A DNA stretch of 22,405 bases from a virus. Position 1 is the stretch's first letter. Each line of letters opens with the position of its first letter. The stretch covers positions 1-22,405 of the IMG/VR virus record IMGVR_UViG_3300025146_000074; one strand, written 5' to 3'. The translations under genes and the position numbers were made by a program. Below the pieces are notes generated by a model. The model ran no database searches. It saw nothing but the letters and a program-made list of their open reading frames with translations, and was not told where the DNA came from. This document shows, one piece after another, positions 435-13,000 of this stretch.

Positions 435-457
435 CCTTTACATCGAAGGAGAGGAAA
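435..457 (+). promoter_or_regulatory. Capsid-gene leader with strong RBS, repeated at 1553
   Basis: The leader reads CCTTTACATCG followed by AAGGAGAGGAAA and the ATG. The AAGGAG core is a strong Shine-Dalgarno match and fixes the capsid start at 458. The same CCTTTACATCG plus a purine-rich ribosome site recurs before the gene at 1577 (copy at 1553-1563). These are the only two leaders in the window that look alike. Confidence 0.6.
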
Positions 458-1450
458 ATGAATAAGAAGTTGGTTTCGACCCCCGATCAGTTCGTTCCCT
501 CTGCGGGGGCGTATGCCGGTGCCATGTTTCTGAAACACGGACTGAATCTCAACGCCCTCCGCACGAACGATCTCCTGCGGAAGGATGAATGGATTCAGTT
601 CGATACGGCGTTGGTCCATGAAGCGATGATCCGGCTGAACGGAATCGCTGATCTCGTGGCGAGAGGGCTGATTTACAATTTGCCCAACGCCCTCGGGAAG
701 ACGATCGTTCAGTGGGAAAAGATCTCCGACATGGACCCGGCGGTCCGGAGCATGGACGGGGCGCGGCGGGGCGACAGGGACCGCCAGGACTTCACCCTGA
801 ACAACATCCCCGTGTACATCACGCACAAGGACTTCAACCTCAACCTGCGCATGCTGGAAGGGTCGCGGACCCTGGGCCAGCCGATCGATGTGACGCAGAT
901 CCAAACGGCTACTCGGCTGATCGTTGAGAGCAACGAGGATGCTTTGTTCAACGGGCCGGGAATCACGGTAGACGGGAACACCGCCTACGGATACACCACC
1001 CATCCGAACCGGAATCTGGGCACCATCGCGGAGCCGTGGACGGATTCGGCAACTACCGGCGAGGATATGCTGGATGACGTGATTCAGATGATCACGTCGG
1101 CGCACGGCGACCGGATGTTCGGTCCGTTCATGCTGTACCTTCCGTCGGGGTACATGACGGCCACGATGGATGACTACAAGGCCAGTTCCGACAAGACCAT
1201 CCTCCAGCGGATCAAGGAACTGCCGGGCATCCTCGACGTGAAGGTGTCCGATCAGTTGGCCGCCGGGAACATGGTCCTGGTGCAGATGACCAGCGACGTG
1301 GTGGACTTGATCTCCGGGGAGCAGCCCCGGGTCGTCACCTGGGACATCGAGGGCGGGTTCATCCTGTGCTTCAAGGTTCTGGACATTCTCATCCCCAGGA
1401 TCAAGACGGACGCCCAGAACCGTTGCGGGGTGGTCCACTACTCCGAGTAA
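458..1450 (+). CDS. Major capsid protein, encapsulin-like HK97 fold
   Basis: A 330-residue shell protein. It resembles the encapsulin/linocin-like branch of HK97-fold capsid proteins: a helical N-terminus (about 40-80), a central strand-turn segment with IPVYITHKDF (117-126), the helix before ESNEDALFNG (157-166), which matches the encapsulin 'E-D-x-x-(I/L)-F-x-G' signature, and a C-terminal beta segment DIEGGFILCFKVLDILIPRI typical of the axial domain. No separate scaffold or maturation protease is visible in the window; one could lie upstream. The ATG at 458 has a very strong ribosome site. Codons end mostly in C or G and arginine is mainly CGN, unlike most other genes here, as expected for the most abundant virion protein. 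It lies between the decoration protein and the head-tail connector genes. Fold assignment is by motif, not structure. Confidence 0.88.
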   Translation: MNKKLVSTPDQFVPSAGAYAGAMFLKHGLNLNALRTNDLLRKDEWIQFDTALVHEAMIRLNGIADLVARGLIYNLPNALGKTIVQWEKISDMDPAVRSMDGARRGDRDRQDFTLNNIPVYITHKDFNLNLRMLEGSRTLGQPIDVTQIQTATRLIVESNEDALFNGPGITVDGNTAYGYTTHPNRNLGTIAEPWTDSATTGEDMLDDVIQMITSAHGDRMFGPFMLYLPSGYMTATMDDYKASSDKTILQRIKELPGILDVKVSDQLAAGNMVLVQMTSDVVDLISGEQPRVVTWDIEGGFILCFKVLDILIPRIKTDAQNRCGVVHYSE

Positions 1451-1550: not shown

Positions 1551-1576
1551 CCCCTTTACATCGTAGGGGAGAGACG

Positions 1577-2092
1577 ATGTTACCAGAGGATTTGGTCAGA
1601 GTTAAGGTGATTGGAAAGTACCACCGTCCAGGGCGTGGGGCGGGGCTATATTCTTTGGGGGAGATCCTCGTCGTCACCAGAAAGCAAGCTCAGGCGGGGC
1701 AGGGGGTGTTGATCGAGGAGAATGAGCCTATTCCCGCTTCCCCGCCCAAGGAGACGCAGAGGTATGAAAAGTTCTTCCCCCCCAAGGCCAAAAAAGAGGA
1801 ACGGGGAGAGGAACAGGGAGAGGAACGGGAGGACGAATCTCATCTCAAATCCTCTGAAATTCCAGGTTCTCCGCCTCCTTTGCCGGAGACTTCTGTGGAG
1901 GAGGACCTCAGACCTACCGTGTTGTTAAGAAGGGAATCCGTAGAGGGGCGGGGGGTGAGGTACATCAAGGAGGATGGAAGCCCCGCCCACATCGGGCGTC
2001 TGGGAACGAAGCAAGAGGAAGAAGCCGTCATAAAGACCCAGACCAGAAAGGCCAATGAGGCCGGGTTCAGGTTGGAAGTAGTTGATTCCTAG
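1577..2092 (+). CDS. Unknown virion-associated protein with N-terminal beta module and charged linker
   Basis: A 171-residue protein not recognised as a named family. Residues 6-47 form a compact module: VRVKVIGKY, a PGRGAG turn, then GEILVVTRKQAQAG. This looks like the small SH3-like phage module of the type 'I-R-V-K-V..G-x..P-G....G-(E/D)-V-x-x-V-T'. A similar module opens the GT8-like enzyme at 3061. Residues 50-110 are low complexity, Pro- and Glu/Lys-rich, including three 4-residue repeats (EERG/EEQG/EERE), and are surely disordered. Residues 125-171 form a second short ordered region (RYIKEDGSPAHIGRLG, then a helix). Position between the capsid and adaptor genes, and the leader shared with the capsid gene, suggest a head-associated protein, perhaps a head fibre or decoration tether. 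That role is inference. Confidence 0.7.
   Translation: MLPEDLVRVKVIGKYHRPGRGAGLYSLGEILVVTRKQAQAGQGVLIEENEPIPASPPKETQRYEKFFPPKAKKEERGEEQGEEREDESHLKSSEIPGSPPPLPETSVEEDLRPTVLLRRESVEGRGVRYIKEDGSPAHIGRLGTKQEEEAVIKTQTRKANEAGFRLEVVDS
1796..1831 (+). repeat. Three tandem 12-bp repeats within coding sequence
   Basis: GAGGAACGGGGA, GAGGAACAGGGA and GAGGAACGGGAG follow each other without a gap and encode EERG-EEQG-EERE in the disordered linker. The copies differ by one or two bases, as expected from replication slippage that tunes linker length. Confidence 0.8.
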
Positions 2093-2100
2093 GGGGTGCC

Positions 2101-2460
2101 ATGGCTAGGGTCACTTCCATCGAAGTCAAGGAAATCATCTCCACGGACATCGCGGACCTTACCGCGTACATAACGGCGGCGAATCTGTTGGTGACGGAGG
2201 TGCTGGGAGGCCTCCTTTCGGATGCTCTCCTCAAAGAGATAGAGCGTTGGCTCTCCGCCCACCTCATCGCCAGCGGCGGGGAGGAAGGGGCGCGGATTGA
2301 AGAGGAACGCATCTTTGAGGCGTACGCGGCGAGATACGGGGGGAAGTTTGGCTTCGGATTGTCGGGCTCCAGGTATGGCCAACAAGTGGCCATCCTTGAC
2401 ACGACGGGCAGAATGGTCTCTCAAGGGACCGTCAAGCCCGCCGTATTCAGGATGATGTAA
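2101..2460 (+). CDS. Head-tail adaptor / connector protein (gp6-like)
   Basis: A 119-residue, mostly helical protein. The N-terminal half has short helices (IADLTAYITAANLLVTEVL), then the helix IERWLSAHLIASG. The C-terminal part ends in SGSRYGQQVAILDTTGRM and KPAVFRMM. The 'Y-(L/A)-(T/S)-A-H' helix followed by 'S-x-R-Y-G-Q-Q-x-x-x-L-D-x-T-G' is a pattern I associate with phage head-tail connector proteins that dock under the portal ring and extend the DNA channel. Length fits the family (about 100-130). The start has a G-rich ribosome site four bases upstream. The stop TAA shares its last base with the ATG of the next gene, coupling the sugar cassette to this virion gene. Confidence 0.75.
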   Translation: MARVTSIEVKEIISTDIADLTAYITAANLLVTEVLGGLLSDALLKEIERWLSAHLIASGGEEGARIEEERIFEAYAARYGGKFGFGLSGSRYGQQVAILDTTGRMVSQGTVKPAVFRMM

Positions 2461-3077
2461 TGAATCGTACCGTTGAGAGGGTCTGGGGCCGTAATGACGT
2501 AGCATATGTGCTGGCTTCTGGGCCCTCTCATGGTCTCATAGATTTAGATTTGTTACGTGGACGTAAGGTGGTGATTACGAACAACATGGTGTTTAAAACG
2601 CCTTGGGCCCCGATTTTATGCGTCCGTGACAAATTGTGGTGGAAGGAGTACCAAGGCCGCCCTGAGTTTCAAAGTTTCGAGGGTGAGGTCATCACGGTAG
2701 TCCCTAATCATTTCCATAAAAATCTCACGTTTTTGAATTATGGGGGAAGTGATGGCCTCAGCCGGGACAGGTACACCGTCTACGGGTTAAACTGCGGCCA
2801 AATGGCCATGAACGTCGTATTCCTAAAGGGGGCGGGCACTATAATTCTGATAGGTTTTGATATGCGGAAGGTGAACGATTTGGATCATGGGTGTGAACCA
2901 CATAAGAGGCCCGTCAAGGAAGAAAATTATAGTAGGTTCATAAGAAACATGGCTGTGATGGCATCGGAATTGCGCGACGAGGGTATAGAAGTCCTCAATG
3001 CTACACCGGGTAGCGCTCTTCCTTATTTCCCAATAATTTCCATGGAGGAGGCCCTTCGTCGTGGCAGACTTAATTAG
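2460..3077 (+). CDS. DUF115/Maf-like putative sugar transferase
   Basis: A 205-residue cytoplasmic protein with a Rossmann-like layout. An N-terminal strand and loop VLASGPS (17-23) is followed by VVITNN (37-42), a central NCGQMAMNVVFLKGAGTIILIGFDM (111-135, strand-helix-strand) and a C-terminal LNATPGSALPYFPI (179-192). This order matches the DUF115 (MptE-like/Maf) superfamily, common in phages. Some members are linked to transfer of acidic sugars to flagellin; others are pterin pyrophosphokinases. A sugar-transfer role fits the neighbours, but the donor and acceptor are unknown. Its ATG overlaps the adaptor stop codon (TAATG) and its 3' end overlaps the next gene by 17 bases. Base composition is clearly more A/T-rich than the capsid gene. 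A non-catalytic sugar-binding role cannot be excluded. Confidence 0.65.
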   Translation: MNRTVERVWGRNDVAYVLASGPSHGLIDLDLLRGRKVVITNNMVFKTPWAPILCVRDKLWWKEYQGRPEFQSFEGEVITVVPNHFHKNLTFLNYGGSDGLSRDRYTVYGLNCGQMAMNVVFLKGAGTIILIGFDMRKVNDLDHGCEPHKRPVKEENYSRFIRNMAVMASELRDEGIEVLNATPGSALPYFPIISMEEALRRGRLN

Positions 3078-4047
3078 GTGCGTAGTTAGGGGAAAGATGA
3101 ACCTTCCGGGAGGCGGGAGGGTTCCAGAGGGGGAAGTAATTGAGGTAACCCTTCATCAATATAAGAATTTTAGGGACGCTCTTGAGATCGTGAAAGACCC
3201 TCCCCCCCTTCCGATATTGAGGAATAATCCTCCAATGTCTCGATTCGAACCTCGCACAAAGGAAGGGCCCGAAATTCAAGGACTAATAAGTTTGGAATGG
3301 ACGGGGCCCGTCACGGTGGCGTGCGTGCTTAGGCCGTCTAAGGATTTTTCAGTGAATGTGGTGGAATTACTGTACCGTCAGTGTAGACGGTGGCTGTCAA
3401 GAATGGGTAGGTTCGTTTGTCTTACGGAAGAATCCGAGATGATGTTTAGCCCTGGTATAGAAGTGGTGCCTCTTCTACACCCTGAGTGGGCCACAAAACA
3501 TTCTAAACTCGAACTTTTTCGCCCCGAATTGTTGGAGGATTGGGGCCGAGTGTTGTACATGGATTTGGATACGATACTGTGCGGAGATTTAAACCCATTG
3601 GTGTCGTATGCCGGTAGGTTCGCGATGTTGATAGACGTAAACTTCCCCGACAACCCCGGCTCCGGTGTGATGTTATGGGGCCCGGATCGCAGGATGTCAG
3701 AAATATATTATGACTTTTTACGGATGCCTCCTGGGGAGCAAATAAGAAAATACCCCATCGGGGGCGGGCGTGGTGACCAGTTGTTCATACGCAATCACAC
3801 CCCGTACGCACCCCATTACATACAGGATTTTTTCTCGGGGGCGGTTTCCTTCAAGAAGCATTTCCGAGGAGAGGACGCCCCACCGGATATGCCCCTCTCG
3901 ATGGTATATTTTCATGGGAGGCCGAAGCCTTTTGAAGCGGCCATGAAGTATAAACAGTATCGTAACATATTTGAGCCATGGCTTAAGGAATATTGTGAGT
4001 TAGATGAGGAAATCAAGTCTGTTTGGCCCTATAGGGAGGAGGAATGA
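3061..4047 (+). CDS. GT8-like glycosyltransferase with N-terminal docking module
   Basis: A 328-residue protein in three parts. Residues 4-45 are a small beta module (IRCVVRGKM, PGGG turn, PEGEVIEVTLHQY) resembling residues 7-47 of the protein at 1577. Residues 46-78 are a Pro-rich linker. Residues 80-315 are a GT-A fold transferase: TVACVLRPS at the first strand, VLYMDLDTILCGDL (164-177) with the metal-binding DxD at 168-170, GRGDQLFIR (236-244), and YFHGRPKPF (283-291), the GT8-type C-terminal 'H-x-G-x-x-K-P'. These enzymes are retaining and use a nucleotide sugar with a divalent metal. The GTG start at 3061 follows GGAGGAGG (3044-3051). Members are usually known from lipopolysaccharide or glycogenin-type reactions. 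Here the donor might be UDP-sulfoquinovose made by the gene at 5268. The acceptor is unknown. Confidence 0.8.
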   Translation: MADLIRCVVRGKMNLPGGGRVPEGEVIEVTLHQYKNFRDALEIVKDPPPLPILRNNPPMSRFEPRTKEGPEIQGLISLEWTGPVTVACVLRPSKDFSVNVVELLYRQCRRWLSRMGRFVCLTEESEMMFSPGIEVVPLLHPEWATKHSKLELFRPELLEDWGRVLYMDLDTILCGDLNPLVSYAGRFAMLIDVNFPDNPGSGVMLWGPDRRMSEIYYDFLRMPPGEQIRKYPIGGGRGDQLFIRNHTPYAPHYIQDFFSGAVSFKKHFRGEDAPPDMPLSMVYFHGRPKPFEAAMKYKQYRNIFEPWLKEYCELDEEIKSVWPYREEE

Positions 4048-4622
4048 TGCATCTATACCCTCATGGCCGTGTTCCCAACAACCACCCGCAAGTGATACAG
4101 TTCTGCGTAGAAGCGAATGGGTGGATCAGAGGGGTGGAGGTGGGCTTGGGGCGGGGACAGAACATGTCGCACCTCATGTCCACATGTCCACACCTTCACA
4201 TGATAGGGGTAGACGTGTTTAGACACATGCCAGAGGCTCCCGGGGAGGAAGCTTATAGGGCCATGAACCACGAGGGAAACAGAAAGCGTTTGCGTACCCT
4301 GGAAAAGGCCTTTTCCGAGAGGTTCAGGGTTCTCGAAATGACTTCTCGGGAGGCCTCCTTCCGGGTGGAAGAGGAGAGCGCCGATTTCGTTTTCATAGAT
4401 GCGGACCATTCCACGGAGGGGTGCCTAGAAGATATTGGACTGTGGGCCCCAAAAGTAAAAATAGGCGGGTGGATTCTTGGACATGACTATAACCGCTTTG
4501 GGATTAACGAGGCGGTTAATAAAGCGTTTGGTGGATTTCCGGACGTCGATTATCAAGTTCTTCCATATTCGGTATGGGCGAAGAGGAAAGAGGTTTCCGA
4601 TGTGGTTCGTACCTACGCGTAA
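4044..4622 (+). CDS. Class I SAM-dependent methyltransferase
   Basis: A 192-residue protein with the Rossmann methyltransferase motifs in order: motif I VEVGLGRGQN (31-40), acidic post-I residue in IGVDVF (Asp57), FVFIDADHSTEG (115-126) as the strand-4 acidic motif, and KIGGWILGHDY (139-149) after strand 5. This layout is that of Methyltransf_24/TylF/rhamnosyl O-methyltransferase-type enzymes, many of which methylate sugars. In this context an O-methyl cap on a glycan is the simplest reading; a protein or small-molecule substrate is possible. The ATG overlaps the preceding TGA by four bases and follows GGGAGGAGG. The 3' end overlaps the next gene by 23 bases. Confidence 0.8.
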   Translation: MMHLYPHGRVPNNHPQVIQFCVEANGWIRGVEVGLGRGQNMSHLMSTCPHLHMIGVDVFRHMPEAPGEEAYRAMNHEGNRKRLRTLEKAFSERFRVLEMTSREASFRVEEESADFVFIDADHSTEGCLEDIGLWAPKVKIGGWILGHDYNRFGINEAVNKAFGGFPDVDYQVLPYSVWAKRKEVSDVVRTYA

Positions 4623-5271
4623 CAGGCCGGAAAGGCTGCAGAGGTTCCTCGACGGTTGCATCGCCACCGGAATGATCATGCCCGGTCTCATAGTAGTGGA
4701 CGGCGAGGACGGCGGCGATTACTCGAGCGTTAAATTGCCGCTTAATTGGAAAATTGAAACAGCTTCCGTACGGATTGACGCGGGAGGAAGGCAAGAGTGC
4801 TATTTTAGGTCTTACCCCGACGCTAAGTTCTACAGCATCGTGAATGATGACGTGGTACCAGAAACCCCTAAATGGGACGTGGAACTGGCTCTAGAGGCCG
4901 GAGATTGGAACGTAGCTTATCCTTGGGACACGTTGAGTGAAATGGCGACCCAATTTCTGGTAGGTGGGAAGTTATGCCACGCCGTGGGGTCTTTTTCACT
5001 TGGCTTCATGCACACCATGGTGGACCGGGCGTGGATGGATATAGGGGCCGCCCTAGGAAGGTTGAAATTCCGCAAAGATATTCGTCTCCGTCATGAACAT
5101 TGGAGCAGAGGGCTCGCACCGAGAGACGCCACGTATAAGCGGGAGTTAAATGGGGTCTCGACTATCGCTCATGATCGCGCCCGGTACGCGGCATGGAAGA
5201 CAGAAGAATTCCCTGCGCTTATCGCGCATCTGAAAACCGTTGTCCCATTTTCTCTTGGAGCCCCCACATGA
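4600..5271 (+). CDS. GT2-like (GT-A fold) glycosyltransferase
   Basis: The frame is open further upstream, but the ATG at 4600 is chosen because it follows AGAGGAAAGAGG (4582-4593) and opens directly into the first strand of the fold, FVPTRNRPERLQRFL. The 223-residue product has the GT-A order: VPTRNRP (4-10) for nucleotide binding, LIVVDGEDGGDY (30-41), FYSIVNDDVVPETP (77-90) with the metal-binding acidic pair at 83-84, and WMDIGAALGRL (145-155). A late LRHEHWSRGLAPRDATY (163-179) resembles a conserved phage glycosyltransferase family in which 'H-x-H' precedes 'D-x-T-Y'. It is shorter than typical GT2 enzymes and has no membrane segment, so it should be cytoplasmic. Donor and acceptor are unknown. 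It ends in ATGA overlap with the UDP-sulfoquinovose synthase gene. Confidence 0.75.
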   Translation: MWFVPTRNRPERLQRFLDGCIATGMIMPGLIVVDGEDGGDYSSVKLPLNWKIETASVRIDAGGRQECYFRSYPDAKFYSIVNDDVVPETPKWDVELALEAGDWNVAYPWDTLSEMATQFLVGGKLCHAVGSFSLGFMHTMVDRAWMDIGAALGRLKFRKDIRLRHEHWSRGLAPRDATYKRELNGVSTIAHDRARYAAWKTEEFPALIAHLKTVVPFSLGAPT

Positions 5272-6464
5272 AAATCCTTGTCCTCGGAGCCGATGGATAT
5301 CTTGGCTGGCCTACGTGCCTTCATTTTTCTATAAGAGGACATGAAGTCCACGCTCTAGATAGTTGCGTGAAGCGTAGGCTTCTATTTGATTTGGGTAGGA
5401 ATACCTTAGTACACGTGCATGGGTTTCAGGACCGTATATCGGCATGGACCAGTATGACGAAAAAGAAAATCGAGGGATGGGAATGTAGTTTGATAGGAAG
5501 CTATGCTCGGTTGTCCAAGATTCTTCATACCATACGTCCGGACGTAATAGTTCACTACGCTGAACAACCTTCTGCTCCCTTCTCTATGATGAATGCGGCT
5601 TCCGCCGTGTACACTCAGGAGAACAACGTTTTGGGGACACTGAACTTAATGTTCGCGGTTAAGGAAGAATGTCCGGAGGCTCACATCATAAAATTGGGGA
5701 CCATGGGGGAATATGGAACCCCAGGTATAGTAATTGAGGAGGGGTGGTTAAACATAACCCACAGAGGGAAGACCGCAAGGGTTTTATACCCTAAGAGTCC
5801 AGGCAGTTTTTACCATGCGTCAAAGATACACGACTCTACGAATTTAGAATTTGGATGTAGGGCGTGGGGCCTAAGGGTGTCTGATTTGAATCAGGGGGTG
5901 GTGTATGGGTTTAGTACCCCCGAGACTGAAAAACACTCTTATTTAGGGACAATGTTGTATTATGACGACATTTTTGGGACAGTGTTGAACCGGTTTATCC
6001 ACCAAGCGGCTGTTGGCCACCCCTTGACGGTGTATGGGAGAGGAGGCCAGACGAGAGGTTTTATAAACATAATCGACACCATGAAGTGTGTAGAAATAGC
6101 GGCTCTCAATCCTGCCGATCCTGGAGAGTTTAGGGTGTTTAATCAATTTACAGAAACGTATTCTGTATCGGCTCTCGCAGGGGTGGTGGAGAAAGCCGCT
6201 ACCGCTCTCGGAATGGAAGTTAAGAGAGAAAACATTGAAAATCCGAGGGTGGAGGCGGAATCCCATTACTACGACGCCGTGAACAGTGGTCTAAAGGCTC
6301 TTGGCCACCGTCCGACTAGACTGACTATCGACATGGTAAAGGAAATGCTACGCGTAACGGTGGAAAACAAAGGTAGAATAGACACGAAGGCTATACGTCC
6401 TTCCGTGAAGTGGAGAGAAAAAGGCTGGGAGGACCCTTGTGCCGTGGCTCCTTCTGTGTTATAA
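5268..6464 (+). CDS. sqd1: UDP-sulfoquinovose synthase
   Basis: A 398-residue NAD-dependent short-chain dehydrogenase-type enzyme that makes UDP-6-sulfoquinovose from UDP-glucose and sulfite. It is recognised from near-identical family blocks: LVLGADGYLGWPT (NAD-binding GxxGxxG, 4-16), QPSAPFSMM (100-108), AVYTQENNVLGTLN (113-126), KLGTMGEYGTP (142-152), FYHASKIHDS (181-190), LNQGVVYG (207-214), GHPLTVYGRGGQTRGF (250-265), GEFRVFNQFTE (286-296) and NPRVEAESHYY (325-335). The catalytic Thr145 and the Tyr182-x-x-x-Lys186 pair are present; as I recall, these are also the residue numbers in Arabidopsis SQD1. It is full length without a plastid transit peptide. The ATG at 5268 overlaps the previous stop (ATGA), with GGAG seven bases upstream; an in-frame extension from 5193 would overlap the GT2 gene and is rejected. 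The family normally serves sulfolipid synthesis in phototrophs and some other bacteria. Finding it inside a phage structural operon is unusual. Confidence 0.95.
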   Translation: MKILVLGADGYLGWPTCLHFSIRGHEVHALDSCVKRRLLFDLGRNTLVHVHGFQDRISAWTSMTKKKIEGWECSLIGSYARLSKILHTIRPDVIVHYAEQPSAPFSMMNAASAVYTQENNVLGTLNLMFAVKEECPEAHIIKLGTMGEYGTPGIVIEEGWLNITHRGKTARVLYPKSPGSFYHASKIHDSTNLEFGCRAWGLRVSDLNQGVVYGFSTPETEKHSYLGTMLYYDDIFGTVLNRFIHQAAVGHPLTVYGRGGQTRGFINIIDTMKCVEIAALNPADPGEFRVFNQFTETYSVSALAGVVEKAATALGMEVKRENIENPRVEAESHYYDAVNSGLKALGHRPTRLTIDMVKEMLRVTVENKGRIDTKAIRPSVKWREKGWEDPCAVAPSVL

Positions 6465-6485
6465 TGGAGGGTAGTGCCCCATAGC

Positions 6486-6491
6486 GGGAGG
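6486..6491 (+). promoter_or_regulatory. Ribosome binding site deciding the 6498 start
   Basis: GGGAGG ends six bases before GTG 6498. The competing GTG at 6474 has its GGAGGG too close for good initiation, which favours the shorter protein. Confidence 0.55.
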
Positions 6492-6497
6492 CTTAAG

Positions 6498-6875
6498 GTG
6501 TCCATAGCCAGCAGGATAGCCTCAAGGATTTCTGCCCGCTCTCAAAAAATAGGGAAAACCGTTACCATTCGCAGAGTGGTGCAGAACTATGTAGTCGCTA
6601 CGGGGAAGACCTCGGTGGTCAGTACGACGGATATTTCTGGTAAGGCGATGATAACCACGAAATCCAAAAGTAACCCTTCTGGAATGAATCCGGAGGAGAC
6701 TCTTCGGTTCTTTCTTCCCAAGCACACGTCCATCACCTTCGATCCGGCGGTTGGAGATATTGTGGTTATTGGGACGGACATGTCCGTGGGGCCTTTTTAT
6801 CGGATCGTGAGGTCCATCCCCAAGAACGTAGGAGAGGACAATTACGGTTTCCTCATCCTCTGTGGTAACGTGTGA
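6498..6875 (+). CDS. Probable head-closure (stopper) protein
   Basis: A 125-residue protein from the GTG at 6498, which has GGGAGG (6486-6491) at ideal spacing. An alternative GTG at 6474 adds eight residues but sits only two or three bases after its GGAGGG. The N-terminus is Ser/Arg-rich (SIASRIASRISARSQKIG). The rest is beta-rich, with TVTIRRVVQNYVV, a disordered Lys/Ser stretch, and VGDIVVIGTDMSVGPFYRIVRSI near the end. That last segment resembles the 'G-D-x-I-x-x-x-G-x-x-Y-x-I' barrel of phage head-closure proteins. Position between the adaptor (now separated by the cassette) and the HK97-gp10-like gene is where a stopper normally lies. Assignment is mainly by gene order. Confidence 0.55.
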   Translation: MSIASRIASRISARSQKIGKTVTIRRVVQNYVVATGKTSVVSTTDISGKAMITTKSKSNPSGMNPEETLRFFLPKHTSITFDPAVGDIVVIGTDMSVGPFYRIVRSIPKNVGEDNYGFLILCGNV

Positions 6876-7585
6876 TGATTAAGCCGCGTGGAGCCATTGG
6901 TGGTAATGAAGTTTATGGGTGGGATTTCGTGGGGAAAACCACCGGTATGATTATTGACCCTATATCAGGTACGGCGGGAGAGGTAACTTCTCTAGGCCGA
7001 AGATTTATCCCCGGACACACTGAGACCCCGGTGATACGGACGCTGGTTAAAAATAAATTTCCGGGGGGAGGTGCCCATACCTCCATAAACAGAGTATTTA
7101 TAGGAACATCCGTGGGTATTCAGCCCCGCCCGGGTCAGCAGGTGTTGATGTCGGGAGACGTGCCAGGATTTCTGGCTTCCGATTGGCAAGGACTCCTCGA
7201 AAAAATGATGAAAAGAATTGAGCAAGATGTCATGGATCGAGTTCTGTACGCCACCCAGACCGCACTTAAGGTGGTGTTTGAAACTTCCCCTATGAACACG
7301 GGGTACTATAAATACAATCATCGTGCGGCATTGAACAATACTGATGTGGGACTGGACCCGTCCCAAAAACCGGATAAGAAAATTCCGGTTCCTTCGAGTT
7401 CCGAGTTGATTGCGCGAGAGATGGGGGCCATCGAAGGGGCGGAGTTAGGGGAGGAAATAGTTTTAGGGACAGCTGTCCCTTACTCGGATTTTGTAGAAGG
7501 GGGAGGTAAGAACACTCGGTCACACAACGTGTACAGCCTAGCAGCCTTAGCGGCCACGGTGGTGTTAAGGGAGATGTTTGAATAA
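6872..7585 (+). CDS. HK97 gp10-like neck / tail-completion protein
   Basis: A 237-residue protein. The C-terminal half carries the HK97 gp10 pattern: a long helix (about 105-140), SPMNTGYYKYNHRAALN (the family's 'S/T-P-x-x-T-G-x-L-x-x-S' block), a loop, then VPYSDFVEGGGKNTRSH (the 'Y-A-x-x-V-E-x-G' block) and a final helix. Family members join the neck to the tail during siphovirus assembly. The N-terminal hundred residues are beta-rich and longer than in typical gp10 homologues, so this is an extended version. The GTG at 6872 overlaps the previous TGA; ATG at 6875 is an equally plausible start. Confidence 0.75.
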   Translation: MMIKPRGAIGGNEVYGWDFVGKTTGMIIDPISGTAGEVTSLGRRFIPGHTETPVIRTLVKNKFPGGGAHTSINRVFIGTSVGIQPRPGQQVLMSGDVPGFLASDWQGLLEKMMKRIEQDVMDRVLYATQTALKVVFETSPMNTGYYKYNHRAALNNTDVGLDPSQKPDKKIPVPSSSELIAREMGAIEGAELGEEIVLGTAVPYSDFVEGGGKNTRSHNVYSLAALAATVVLREMFE

Positions 7586-8004
7586 TGGTCATCGCCGGGT
7601 ACGAGGAAGCTAACAACCTAATTCGGGCGGCCTTTGACTCCGGATGGTTGGATTCAAATGTACCTGTGCTGTATGATAACTTTCAGCAGGACCCGGATGC
7701 GGACGCTCCGGAGCCCCCGTTCCTGAGGGTACAGATTCAACAGGCATTGTCCAGGCAGGTGTCCATGGCCAACGATAAGAGGGTACGGAAAGATGGGCAG
7801 ATAGTAGTGGAGATCCTGGTGCCCGCTGGAGAAGGGGAGGGGCGCGCCCTTGAATTAGCGGACGATGTAGAGACGATACTCGAAACGAAGAACTTTGGCG
7901 GAGTTCAGATGGGAACGTCGAGAAAAGTAAACGTAGGGTCCGTGAAAAGCGCTTGGAAGCTAAACGTGGTCACGGATTTCTATTTTGACGTGTTCCGCAC
8001 CTAG
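7585..8004 (+). CDS. Tail terminator protein
   Basis: A 139-residue alpha/beta protein: an N-terminal helix (AGYEEANNLIRAAFDSGWLD), then PVLYDNFQQDPDADAPEPPFLRVQIQ, VRKDGQIVVEILVPAGEGEGRALELADDVETILE and a C-terminal WKLNVVTDFYFDVFR. The 'P-x-x-(Y/W)-x-N-x-x-x-x-P' start, the 'G-x-x-x-V-x-I' strand and the helix 'G-x-x-x-A-x-x-L-A-D' are hallmarks of the DUF4128/gpU-like tail terminators that cap the tail tube. Position between the gp10-like gene and the major tail protein is standard. The ATG shares the final A of the previous stop (TAATG). Confidence 0.82.
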   Translation: MVIAGYEEANNLIRAAFDSGWLDSNVPVLYDNFQQDPDADAPEPPFLRVQIQQALSRQVSMANDKRVRKDGQIVVEILVPAGEGEGRALELADDVETILETKNFGGVQMGTSRKVNVGSVKSAWKLNVVTDFYFDVFRT

Positions 8005-8018
8005 AGGAGACTACGGAA

Positions 8019-9182
8019 ATGTCTGATGCCAATAGGACTTTGCTGTCGTATGTAGAAGAGTCCGTCTTCGGGACGACTCCTGTATCTGCGCTGAAAAATT
8101 TCCGGTTCACGGGGGAAAGCCTGGACCACACCACGGAATCTTCGCAGAGCGCGGAGGTGCGGGCGGACCGCCAGATTCCGGACCATATCCGCACAAACGT
8201 CGGAGCATCGGGAGATCTGAACTTCGAACTGTCCTACTCGGCCTTGGACGACTTCCTCGAGGGCCTTCTAGGGGCGGATTGGCCCGCAACGGTGAGCATT
8301 TCCAGGACGGACATACAGGCCATCGCCCCAAACAACGTGTTCTCCACGGTGGCTGGAGATTTCTCGGGCATTCAGATCGGGCAATGGGTCCTGGTGGCGG
8401 GGTTCGATACCGGGGCGAACAACGGATACTTTCTGGTGACAGATAAGCAGTCGGATTCATCGGGCGACTGGATTCAGGTCACCGGTGGCACCCTGGTGGA
8501 CGAGGCGGCGGGAGATACCGTCACCATCAAGGGAACTTGCATCTTCAACGGAACCACGGCCAAGAGCTACTCGATCGAGAAGCACTTCCAGGACGTGAGC
8601 AAGTTCGATTCCTTCGTGGGCTGCAGGGTTGGGGCCATGTCTCTCAACATCGCGGCGAATGCCATCATCACGGGGTCCCTCTCCCTCACAGGTCTCCGTG
8701 GAGCCGCAACTCAAGTGGCTACCATCGGGACGGGGGCGAACGTAGCGGCACCCACGAACGACGTGATGAATGCGATCGATCACGTGGCGGCGATCCGTGA
8801 GGGTGGGACATTGGTCACGCAGGACATCACGGCGATCACTCTGGCCATTACCAACAACCTCCGCGCCCAACCCGCCGTTGCGACTCTTGGGGCGGCGGGA
8901 ATCGGAATCGGATCGTTCAACGTGTCAGGCACGTTCAATGCCTATTTCGAGGACCGTTCTTTCCTCGATAAGTACCGTGGGTTCACCGAAACGAGCCTAG
9001 CCTTCCGGGTCATCGATGGGGACGGGAACGCTTACATGTTCAATCTCCCTGCCATCAAGTTCTCGGGGGGCCCCGTGGTGATCCCTGGCCAGGACCAAGA
9101 CGTGATGGTGGACCTGTCCTTCGTGGCGAAGATGGACACCGTGGCGAGCAAGATGCTCAGCATCACGCGGTTCCCGGCCTAG
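8019..9182 (+). CDS. Major tail (tube) protein
   Basis: A 387-residue tail-tube subunit. The start SDANRTLLSYVEESVFGTTP and the following SLDHTTESSQSAEVRADRQI are typical of phage tail-tube proteins ('Y-x-x-E-x-x-(F/Y)-G-x-x-P' then 'S-x-E-I-R-x-D-R'). NVGASGDLNFELSY (about 68-81) is the beta hairpin with its conserved glycines. A separate beta insert occupies about 90-170 (FSGIQIGQWVLVAGF and IQVTGGTLVDEAAGDTVTIKG). The C-terminal half resumes the tube fold (GIGSFNVSGTFNAYFEDRS, GPVVIPGQDQDVMVDLSF). The ATG follows AGAGGAGA. Codons end mostly in G or C, as in the capsid gene and unlike neighbouring neck genes, which fits high expression. Confidence 0.88.
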   Translation: MSDANRTLLSYVEESVFGTTPVSALKNFRFTGESLDHTTESSQSAEVRADRQIPDHIRTNVGASGDLNFELSYSALDDFLEGLLGADWPATVSISRTDIQAIAPNNVFSTVAGDFSGIQIGQWVLVAGFDTGANNGYFLVTDKQSDSSGDWIQVTGGTLVDEAAGDTVTIKGTCIFNGTTAKSYSIEKHFQDVSKFDSFVGCRVGAMSLNIAANAIITGSLSLTGLRGAATQVATIGTGANVAAPTNDVMNAIDHVAAIREGGTLVTQDITAITLAITNNLRAQPAVATLGAAGIGIGSFNVSGTFNAYFEDRSFLDKYRGFTETSLAFRVIDGDGNAYMFNLPAIKFSGGPVVIPGQDQDVMVDLSFVAKMDTVASKMLSITRFPA

Positions 9183-10067: not shown

Positions 10068-13000
10068 GTGCCGACGATTAAGATAGGCATACGGCTTCCT
10101 ACGGCGGGGATTTCCGCTGATTCTAAACTAGCACGGGATCAGCTTAGGTTAATAGCCCGCGAGGCCCAAACCACCGCCAACTCCCTGCGTAAATCCGCCG
10201 TGGGTATGTCTGACCCCATAACGAGAGTCGCGGAGGCGGCTGTGTTCGCCGCCGCTTCGTTCCGGGAGTTGAAACTGGCGGCGCAAGAACTTAAGAATAC
10301 TGGGGCGGGGACGTTCTTTAACAAGATCCTCGCGGACGCGGTACACACTCATGGTAAGATTGAAAATATAAGTAGAGCCCTAGAGCGGTCTAGAGTAGAC
10401 ATGCTACGGAACCTTGATGTGATGTTCAAGGGCCAGCTTAACCAAATAACCGAGGTCGCTAGGCAGATAAACCAGACTGCTGTTAAGACCTTTGACGCTC
10501 TCGAGAAGGTGCGGGAAAAGGAGTCTTTGGGCGGAGACCCCCTGCGCCGCAAGGGTCAGCCCGGTACGACGGCTGCGGACGTTCAACGCATGTCCTTGGA
10601 ATTGGAGGAGGAAACCGCTAGGAAAAAGGTTAGGATCAATGCGGCCAAGGACGAGGCTCTGGTTAGACAGGAACACATCACCCGGGGCGAAATAGCAAAG
10701 ATTAATAAGAGATTTACTGATGCGGAATTTAAGCTCAAGGCTTCTCTCAGGGAGGAAGACCTTAAAAGAGCTATTGAATCCAATAGGATAATAACTGAGA
10801 AGAACGTAGAGGCTGAGAAACAAAAATTAGCCTTGTCTAAGAGTAACATTGAGGCTGGCCGTTCTGCGGAGTTGGAAAGAGTCGATAGGGCGCGGATAGA
10901 GCGTCTTAAAGAGGTCGCGAAGGCGCAGAACGAACTTAACGTGGAGACGGCTAAGGAAGAGGCGCAACTTGTTACCGCCAAGGTAGCCTCGGGAGAGCTT
11001 GACAAAGCGCACACGTCCCTTGCGCGCCAAAAGATCAGGCTCACGGAGTTAGTCGCTAATGAAAAGATCACTCAGGAAGAGGCCAATAAGCAATATGAAC
11101 TAACCAAGACTAGGCTTCTATCAGTAGGCGATGCCCAGAACGCGTCGGGCAAAAAGATGGTCCGCGCCGTTAAGGACCAATCAACAGCTATTGATGAGTT
11201 TAATGTACGGGAGGCCCGGCGGGCTATACTTTTAGGACAAGGATCGGCGGCGCAATTAAAATTTGCGCAGGTTCAAAGAGACTTGAATAAGGACGTTCAC
11301 GCCGGTCTCTTGACGCAGGACGCAGCAAATGATAGAATGGTGCGGGCCAGGAAGGTGTTCTTCGGTGGAGCGGAGGCGGTAGGAGCCACGCAGAGGAGGC
11401 TCCAGGGCCTCCGTGGAGAATTAAACGAGGTTGGCCGGGTCATGAGGATCGCTTTGGGTCCCCTTTCCCGGGCAGCTTCGGCGGTTACCAACTTCGGCAT
11501 CTTGATCGAAAGTACGTCCATTAAGATGGCGGTCGCCGTTGGCGGATTCCTTTTAATGGCTTTCGGTGCGGTGAAAGCCGCGAAAGCGTATATAGAATTT
11601 GAGAAGGGGCTGGTGGGCGTCCGCAAAACCACTGATTTGTCGGCGGCGGGTATGGAGGTCCTCAGTGACAATTTTCTCAGGATGTCCACTCGCGTAAACA
11701 TTGGGGCGTCGGAATTATCGGGGATCGCACAAATAGCAGGACAGATGGGAATTAGGGGAGTGGAGGACATTGCGTCCTTTACGGAAGCCATAGCAATCCT
11801 TACCAAAACCACCTCCCTCACCGGTCCAGACGCAGCCACGAAGATCGCGCAGCTCTTATCCATCACGAATGAGGCGGCCAATACCGCCCCTCGTCTAGCC
11901 TCCGTCATAGTGGATTTGGGCAATAAATTCGCGGCAAATGAGTCCCGTATCGTTGAGTTCGGTGTAGACGTGGCGCGGGTCGGGGCAGCTTTCGGGGTCA
12001 CGGCTACGCAGTCATTGGCCATGGGTACGGCTCTGGCGCAATTGGGAGCTAATGCGGAATCAGGCTCCACCGCCGTGGGTAGGCTCTTCGCTAAGATGAA
12101 TGAGGCCATAGACGAGGGAGGCATAAGGCTGCAACAGTTCGCCGAAATAACGGACCGCAGTACCCTTCAATTTACTGAGTTGTTCAGGAAGGATGCCATG
12201 GGAGCGGTCCTTGAATTCATAAAGGGCCTTAACCTTTTACAAAAGCAGGGGGCTTCTACGGCCCAGGTGTTAAAGGACCTTGAAATCGGGGGATTTAGAG
12301 AGATTAAGTCCCTTCTTCCCTTGGCTAAGGGGTATCAGGTCGCGGCACAGGCGCAGAGGGACGCCAGTACCGCTTTCAGGGACGGCAAGAAGCACCTCAC
12401 GGAATTGGAAATCGCAAATAAGTCATTCGGCGCGTCGGTGGACTTTGTAGGGAGGAAGCTTAATGTAATCGCCGTAGAAATAGGTAGGGACCTGCTGCCC
12501 GTGATGAGGGCTCTCACTGGATCATTAAACTGGGTCCTAGACCATCAATTGGCTATAGAGACGGCTATATTAACTATAGCCACGGCTTTTGCGGCATGGG
12601 CAGCCGCCGCTAATGCAAATCCTTTCCTACGGGCCGTGAGCATCGGCGCGGCGATAATCTCCTCCATACCGGTGTTAGCCCGCTTAATGAAGGAATTAGG
12701 GGGGAAGGGGTCTCTTGAGGGCGGTAAAGCGATCATTGATGAATTAAAAATACAGCAACAGCAAATCGGGGTCGCCACTGAGCAAAACCTCGCATCCATC
12801 CAGAAGAACCTTGAGGTGGCCGTAGCCTACCGCGACAAGATAGAGGGTGTAATATCTGTACTGCAAAAGAAGATGGAGACACCGAAGATAGGGTCTTCCT
12901 TCGGAGTCACGGCTGGAGGCGGCCTCATGGTGGGGGCCGAGAGGGCTAAAATACAAAGCGAAATTAAATCTCTTCGGGGTGAAGCAGACGAGCTAGATGT

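Follow-up and report, generated by a model that had tools for sequence, protein, structure and literature searches.

A phage glycosyltransferase carries an N-terminal module related to capsid-adjacent proteins

Gene order of the window and its sugar-enzyme cassette

The window, the whole stretch of 22,405 nucleotides analysed here, is a 22.4 kb virus record of a tailed phage, an uncultured bacterial virus. Its genes lie in the order decoration protein, capsid protein, a small protein (the 1577 protein), connector, an island of sugar enzymes (2460-6464), and head closure and tail genes (Table 1). The same genes are found, 100% identical, on four further contigs, which therefore provide no independent check by variation. 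Family 1 encapsulins are relatives of the capsid protein (458-1450; PF04454, E 7e-7). The 1577 protein occupies the same position as capsid-adjacent proteins of other phages. According to the initial annotation, the 1577 gene shares a leader with the capsid gene; this was confirmed, as CCTTTACATCGWAGGRGAG lies ahead of both genes where 0.01 matches would be expected.

Table 1. Features of the window, with coordinates, strand and supporting evidence.
Feature	Position	Strand	Evidence or remark
Leader ahead of capsid gene	435..453	+	CCTTTACATCGWAGGRGAG
Major capsid protein, DUF6260/encapsulin-like	458..1450	+	PF19774 E 2e-23; PHROG 771
Identical leader ahead of 1577 gene	1553..1571	+	CCTTTACATCGWAGGRGAG
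1577 protein, small protein of 171 aa between capsid gene and connector gene	1577..2092	+	
1577 protein module, residues 5-50	about 1589..1726	+	BLASTP to glycosyltransferase
1577 protein low-complexity linker, residues 51-113	1727..1915	+	low confidence in model
1577 protein C-terminal domain, residues 114-170	1916..2086	+	strands-helix-strand, pLDDT about 90
Head-tail connector-like protein	2101..2460	+	syntenic in relatives
Sialyltransferase-like protein (PHROG 4603)	2460..3077	+	E 4e-28
Glycosyltransferase ORF with N-terminal module, 328 aa, GTG start	3061..4047	+	
Glycosyltransferase module, residues 3-46	about 3067..3198	+	BLASTP to 1577 protein; capsid-adjacent profile match at residues 8-39
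Glycosyltransferase Pro-rich linker, residues 47-80	3199..3300	+	sequence
GT8-like catalytic domain (PHROG 1962)	3301..3960	+	E 2e-30, residues 85-300
Methyltransferase (Methyltransf_24)	4044..4622	+	E 1.5e-15
Second glycosyltransferase (PHROG 14945), start taken at MWFVPTR	4600..5271	+	E 6e-20
UDP-sulfoquinovose synthase (SQD1) homologue	5268..6464	+	1QRR E 5e-136, full length; NF041015 E 2e-125

The glycosyltransferase (GT) ORF is preceded by a good Shine-Dalgarno sequence (GGAGGAGG), and its start overlaps the stop of the upstream gene by about 13-17 bases, as it does in the orthologues of loci L110 and L111. The catalytic domain contains DLD at residues 168-170 and FHG at residues 284-286, both in invariant alignment columns. 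Profile searches matched this domain to Gat1 (6MW5, E 2.6e-9), the GT8 enzyme 5GVV (9e-5) and glycogenins, while its score against the GT8 family PF01501, 13.3 bits, lies below the gathering cut-off of 24.3. Its closest relatives of solved structure, Gat1 and glycogenin among them, are GT8 enzymes that modify proteins.

The start chosen for the second glycosyltransferase is also present in its orthologues. The active-site motifs of the SQD1 homologue retain their T, Y and K, and the protein scores 418.6 bits against NF041015, below the equivalog cut-off of 575. Relatives of this protein are encoded in 98 stretches of viral contigs. Its presence suggests that some phage product bears a sulfonated sugar; a literature search combining phage and SQD1 found nothing relevant.

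In loci L110 and L111, the GT, methyltransferase, second GT and SQD1 homologue follow in this order directly behind a capsid gene of family PF19821. Loci L192, L193 and L195 overlap these two and show the same cassette order, and L194 contains the same cassette genes plus a second GT8 copy, with extra genes between; its two GT8 copies are adjacent within the cassette (7004-8468). In L125, an HK97-type capsid gene is followed by a small module protein and then by sialyltransferase-like and GT8 genes, an arrangement also seen in L119, a locus that does not include the capsid gene. Altogether, the cassette is found behind capsid genes of three families (PF19774, PF05065 and PF19821). Conserved cassette order was observed in the window (2460-6464), L110, L111, L192-L195, L306, L348 and L358, and the capsid gene, where it is on the locus, lies ahead of the cassette.

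The GT module is homologous to capsid-adjacent proteins

The initial annotation had proposed that the GT and the 1577 protein share a small N-terminal module, each followed by a Pro-rich linker. Residues 3-51 of the GT align with residues 5-53 of the 1577 protein with 17/51 identities (33%; BLASTP E 8e-5), and the alignment score of 55 compares with a shuffle mean of 22 and was equalled by none of 5000 shuffles. Given that the window encodes about 30 proteins, the pairwise E-value alone would be borderline, and we therefore retested the link with an independent profile. Using the window capsid protein as query, 80 loci were fetched from other phages. In most of these, the small protein directly behind the capsid gene consists of the module and a low-complexity linker, sometimes with a second domain; overall, the module family occupies this position in 57/81 capsid loci. 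The input to the profile was 57 proteins from other phages, each with its gene immediately after the capsid gene; the window was excluded.

This profile matched the GT with an E-value of 3.3e-4 among 7025 ORFs, the next unrelated ORF being at 0.46, and the GT was the sole match outside the capsid-adjacent position. The real N-terminus scored 22.9 bits, compared with 9.5 bits for the best of 20,000 shuffles. Using hhalign, the GT ranked first among the window proteins tested (91.6%, E 8e-7) and the 1577 protein second (16.6%, E 0.0015), with all others at 3% or less. Against a plain HMM of the capsid-adjacent family, the 1577 protein scored 3.6 bits and was not a match. Judged by sequence, the 1577 protein is a divergent member of the module family, one that the HMM alone would miss, and the profile comparisons establish homology of the GT module to the capsid-adjacent proteins. 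The link is closer than generic SH3-like similarity. The Pro-rich stretches following both modules were also recovered (KDPPPLPILRNNPP and ENEPIPASPP).

The shared module is also supported by AlphaFold2 models, one of the GT module (pLDDT 79, from a 34-row alignment) and one of the 1577 protein. The GT module is predicted to contain strands at residues 4-9 and 26-30, a helix at 31-36 and a strand at 41-43; the 1577 module, strands at 6-10 and 30-34 and a helix at 35-40. The order and spacing of strands and helix are identical, the lists of structure matches overlap, with both models matching GINS B domains, and unrelated folds for the two N-terminal segments were not seen. The C-terminal domain of the 1577 protein gave weak fold matches (Z 4.3 or less); ends resembling this domain were noted by eye in L026, L056, L095, L100 and L205.

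The predicted fold is a common one, with GINS B and L9-like domains among the GT-module matches at Z 4-5.7. The module could accordingly be a generic small beta domain serving GT folding, dimerisation or substrate binding, its likeness to capsid-adjacent proteins reflecting common fold only. We regard this explanation as very improbable: the sequence profile link is specific, the orthologous GTs of L110, L111 and L194 manage without the module, and the module of a second fusion (L306, below) resembles its own neighbour closely in sequence.

We also considered whether the GT acquired its module by recent copying from 1577. This is disfavoured by their GC3 values (0.38 against 0.64) and by the closer match of the GT module to the capsid-adjacent protein of L043 (score 67) than to the 1577 protein (55). 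Searches for the module elsewhere were negative: tblastn against INPHARED phage records gave no match to either window module, no PHROG or Pfam family rose above cut-off, a PDB sequence search with the module profile returned chance-like matches only, and the profile found none in 299 bacterial genomes in a search run without a positive control.

A second fusion with a different module

Further cassettes were fetched with the SQD1 homologue as query, which led to L306, the closest relative by this protein (68%). The L306 capsid is HK97-type (PF05065), a family other than that of the window capsid. Its gene is followed by a homing-endonuclease ORF, a further small gene and a 103-residue module protein (5380-5691). 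The homing-endonuclease ORF (3772-4776), directly behind the capsid gene, is of the GIY-YIG/NUMOD3 type. At 5699-7327 lies a 542-residue fusion of a module, a Pro-rich linker, a sialyltransferase-like domain and a GT8 domain. The GT8 domain and its preceding linker are 58% identical to the window GT, with the end of the linker (FxxRTKxGPExQG) kept. The fusion module shares 49% identity with the free module protein encoded beside it (E 9e-14, 20 sd). In contrast, it does not match the window modules (at most 1.3 sd above shuffles), and profile-profile comparison found no link between the L306 module type and the main module family; homology of the two types is therefore not claimed. From these comparisons, it follows that the modules of orthologous GTs differ, and that each is similar to a head-region protein encoded in the same genome. 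A third module-like protein, with an acidic linker and a basic tail, was noted by eye in L306 near the connector genes (10357-10665) and showed no sequence link to the other two L306 modules.

Among 382 cassette enzyme ORFs, we screened for N-terminal extensions resembling another protein of the same locus. Two fusions were found in all. L306 ranked first (z 17). The window pair scored z 5.1, among a few compositional matches; its support comes from the profile evidence. Almost all of the other cassette GTs are without the module, which is therefore not essential to the enzyme. Those of L110, L111 and L192-L195 have a short N-terminal extension and no full module; the short N-termini of the L110 and L111 enzymes, tested as half-modules, showed no clear similarity. 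A likeness between the starts of the GT and methyltransferase in L111 (MVxVR...IRxDxLxPR) was weak, about 0.7% of shuffles being as good, and was set aside.

The chief rival to a targeting function is accidental fusion, in which the cassette inserts beside the module gene and the module is now and then joined to an enzyme with no targeting role. Since the cassette adjoins the module gene, such fusion would be easy; the two are neighbours in many phages (L095, L125, L205, L365), and fusions are as rare as the screen found them. However, the two fusions are independent, lie on orthologous GTs, each include a linker and each match a head protein of their own phage, and the window GT module still fits the family profile. 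Over 39 codons, the two L306 module copies have a dN of 0.60 and a dS of 1.38, indicating mild constraint, although near saturation. Given the independent, genome-matched case in L306, we consider accidental fusion less likely, and on balance unlikely.

Proposed docking at the assembling head and comparison with known systems

We propose, with slightly better than even confidence, that the GT module acts as a docking domain, bringing the enzyme to the assembling head for glycosylation there. In this account, the simplest one, the module would seat the free protein on the assembling head and would also carry the enzyme to it, most likely to the prohead lattice during infection, and the docked GT8 domain would, together with the other cassette enzymes, add a sugar to the capsid or to a capsid-bound protein. 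We infer that the module binds the capsid and that the capsid is the acceptor, possibly of a sulfoquinovose-derived sugar. The suggestion in the initial annotation that the GT and the 1577 protein share a partner gains indirect support from the 57/81 capsid-adjacent position and from the pairing of the L306 fusion with its own head-region protein.

An extended version of the docking proposal, which we hold tentatively and at a little short of an even chance, is that GT docking modules are exchangeable and copied from the phage's own capsid-adjacent protein, matching the enzyme to the adjacent capsid, and that proheads are what the cassette decorates, the added sugar possibly being a sulfonated one. 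With two fusions, the sample is small.

Alternatively, the module could bind the portal, connector, terminase, protease or free module protein, with the GT modifying the bound partner, or else a protein of the neck or tail. Related modules near connector and tail genes (the L306 protein at 10357-10665, by eye, and L291 and L292) and the additional activity of lambda gpFI in DNA packaging (PMC4856287) are in keeping with such a partner. However, the position directly behind the capsid gene is the commonest one for the module across capsid families, and we consider a different head partner improbable.

Phage capsid glycosylation is known in a few cases, and we know of no described way for a phage enzyme to find its capsid. 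If docking is correct, a module shared with the capsid-adjacent protein and replaced along with the capsid type would amount to a targeting code, and a function could be assigned to a very common small head protein.

Lambda gpFI (PF14000) resembles the 1577 protein in that its gene lies behind the capsid gene and in its small beta domain, linker and second domain, and has been described as binding to the gpE lattice (PMC4856287). Unlike the GT, it is a packaging chaperone with no enzyme fusion. Its C-terminal domain (2LSM) matches the GT module at Z 4.2 and 2.2 A over 44 residues, a match that had been predicted before the structure search; it stands at rank 31, with GINS and ribosomal L9-like domains above it, and Z 4.2 is usual for small domains, so this match between structure and model would be no proof of kinship. 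No sequence link between the module and gpFI was found, and the PF14000 profile matched neither the GT, the 1577 protein nor 37 module sequences. By analogy with gpFI, the putative capsid tether proposed initially is plausible. The further suggestion that the GT is packaged in the virion found no support; gpFI is absent from a mass-spectrometry list of lambda virion proteins (PMC10721106), which speaks mildly against it and, by the same analogy, makes transient docking of the GT likelier than packaging.

DUF7210 (PF23843) is a small phage domain of which several prophage copies, directly behind the capsid gene, match the module profile; the GT module scores 14.2 bits against DUF7210, below the gathering cut-off of 27. 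These relatives accompany another capsid family. DUF7210 differs in that tail genes neighbour some of its copies (L291, L292), and the fold is therefore not confined to capsid partners. In L297, L299, L300 and L301, the capsid-like gene is of a further type, and DUF7210-type prophage proteins with a C-terminal region GxPRTE(A/S)L are encoded immediately behind it.

Among enzymes, Gat1 and glycogenin, to which the catalytic domain is closest among solved structures, have to our knowledge no such N-terminal module. In phages P1 and P7, pmgQ/hdmD and hdmB place PHROG 1962 and 4603 close together, as in the window, and are annotated as head morphogenesis; they differ from the window GT in lacking the module, with the match beginning at the GT domain. 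In the Maravista genome, GT genes lie near the 3' end, unlike those of the window, and the passages on mycobacteriophage virion glycosylation in PMC11256854 report no targeting module. The same passages, citing Freeman 2023, link phage GTs of mycobacteriophage Che8 to glycans covalently attached to the major capsid protein.
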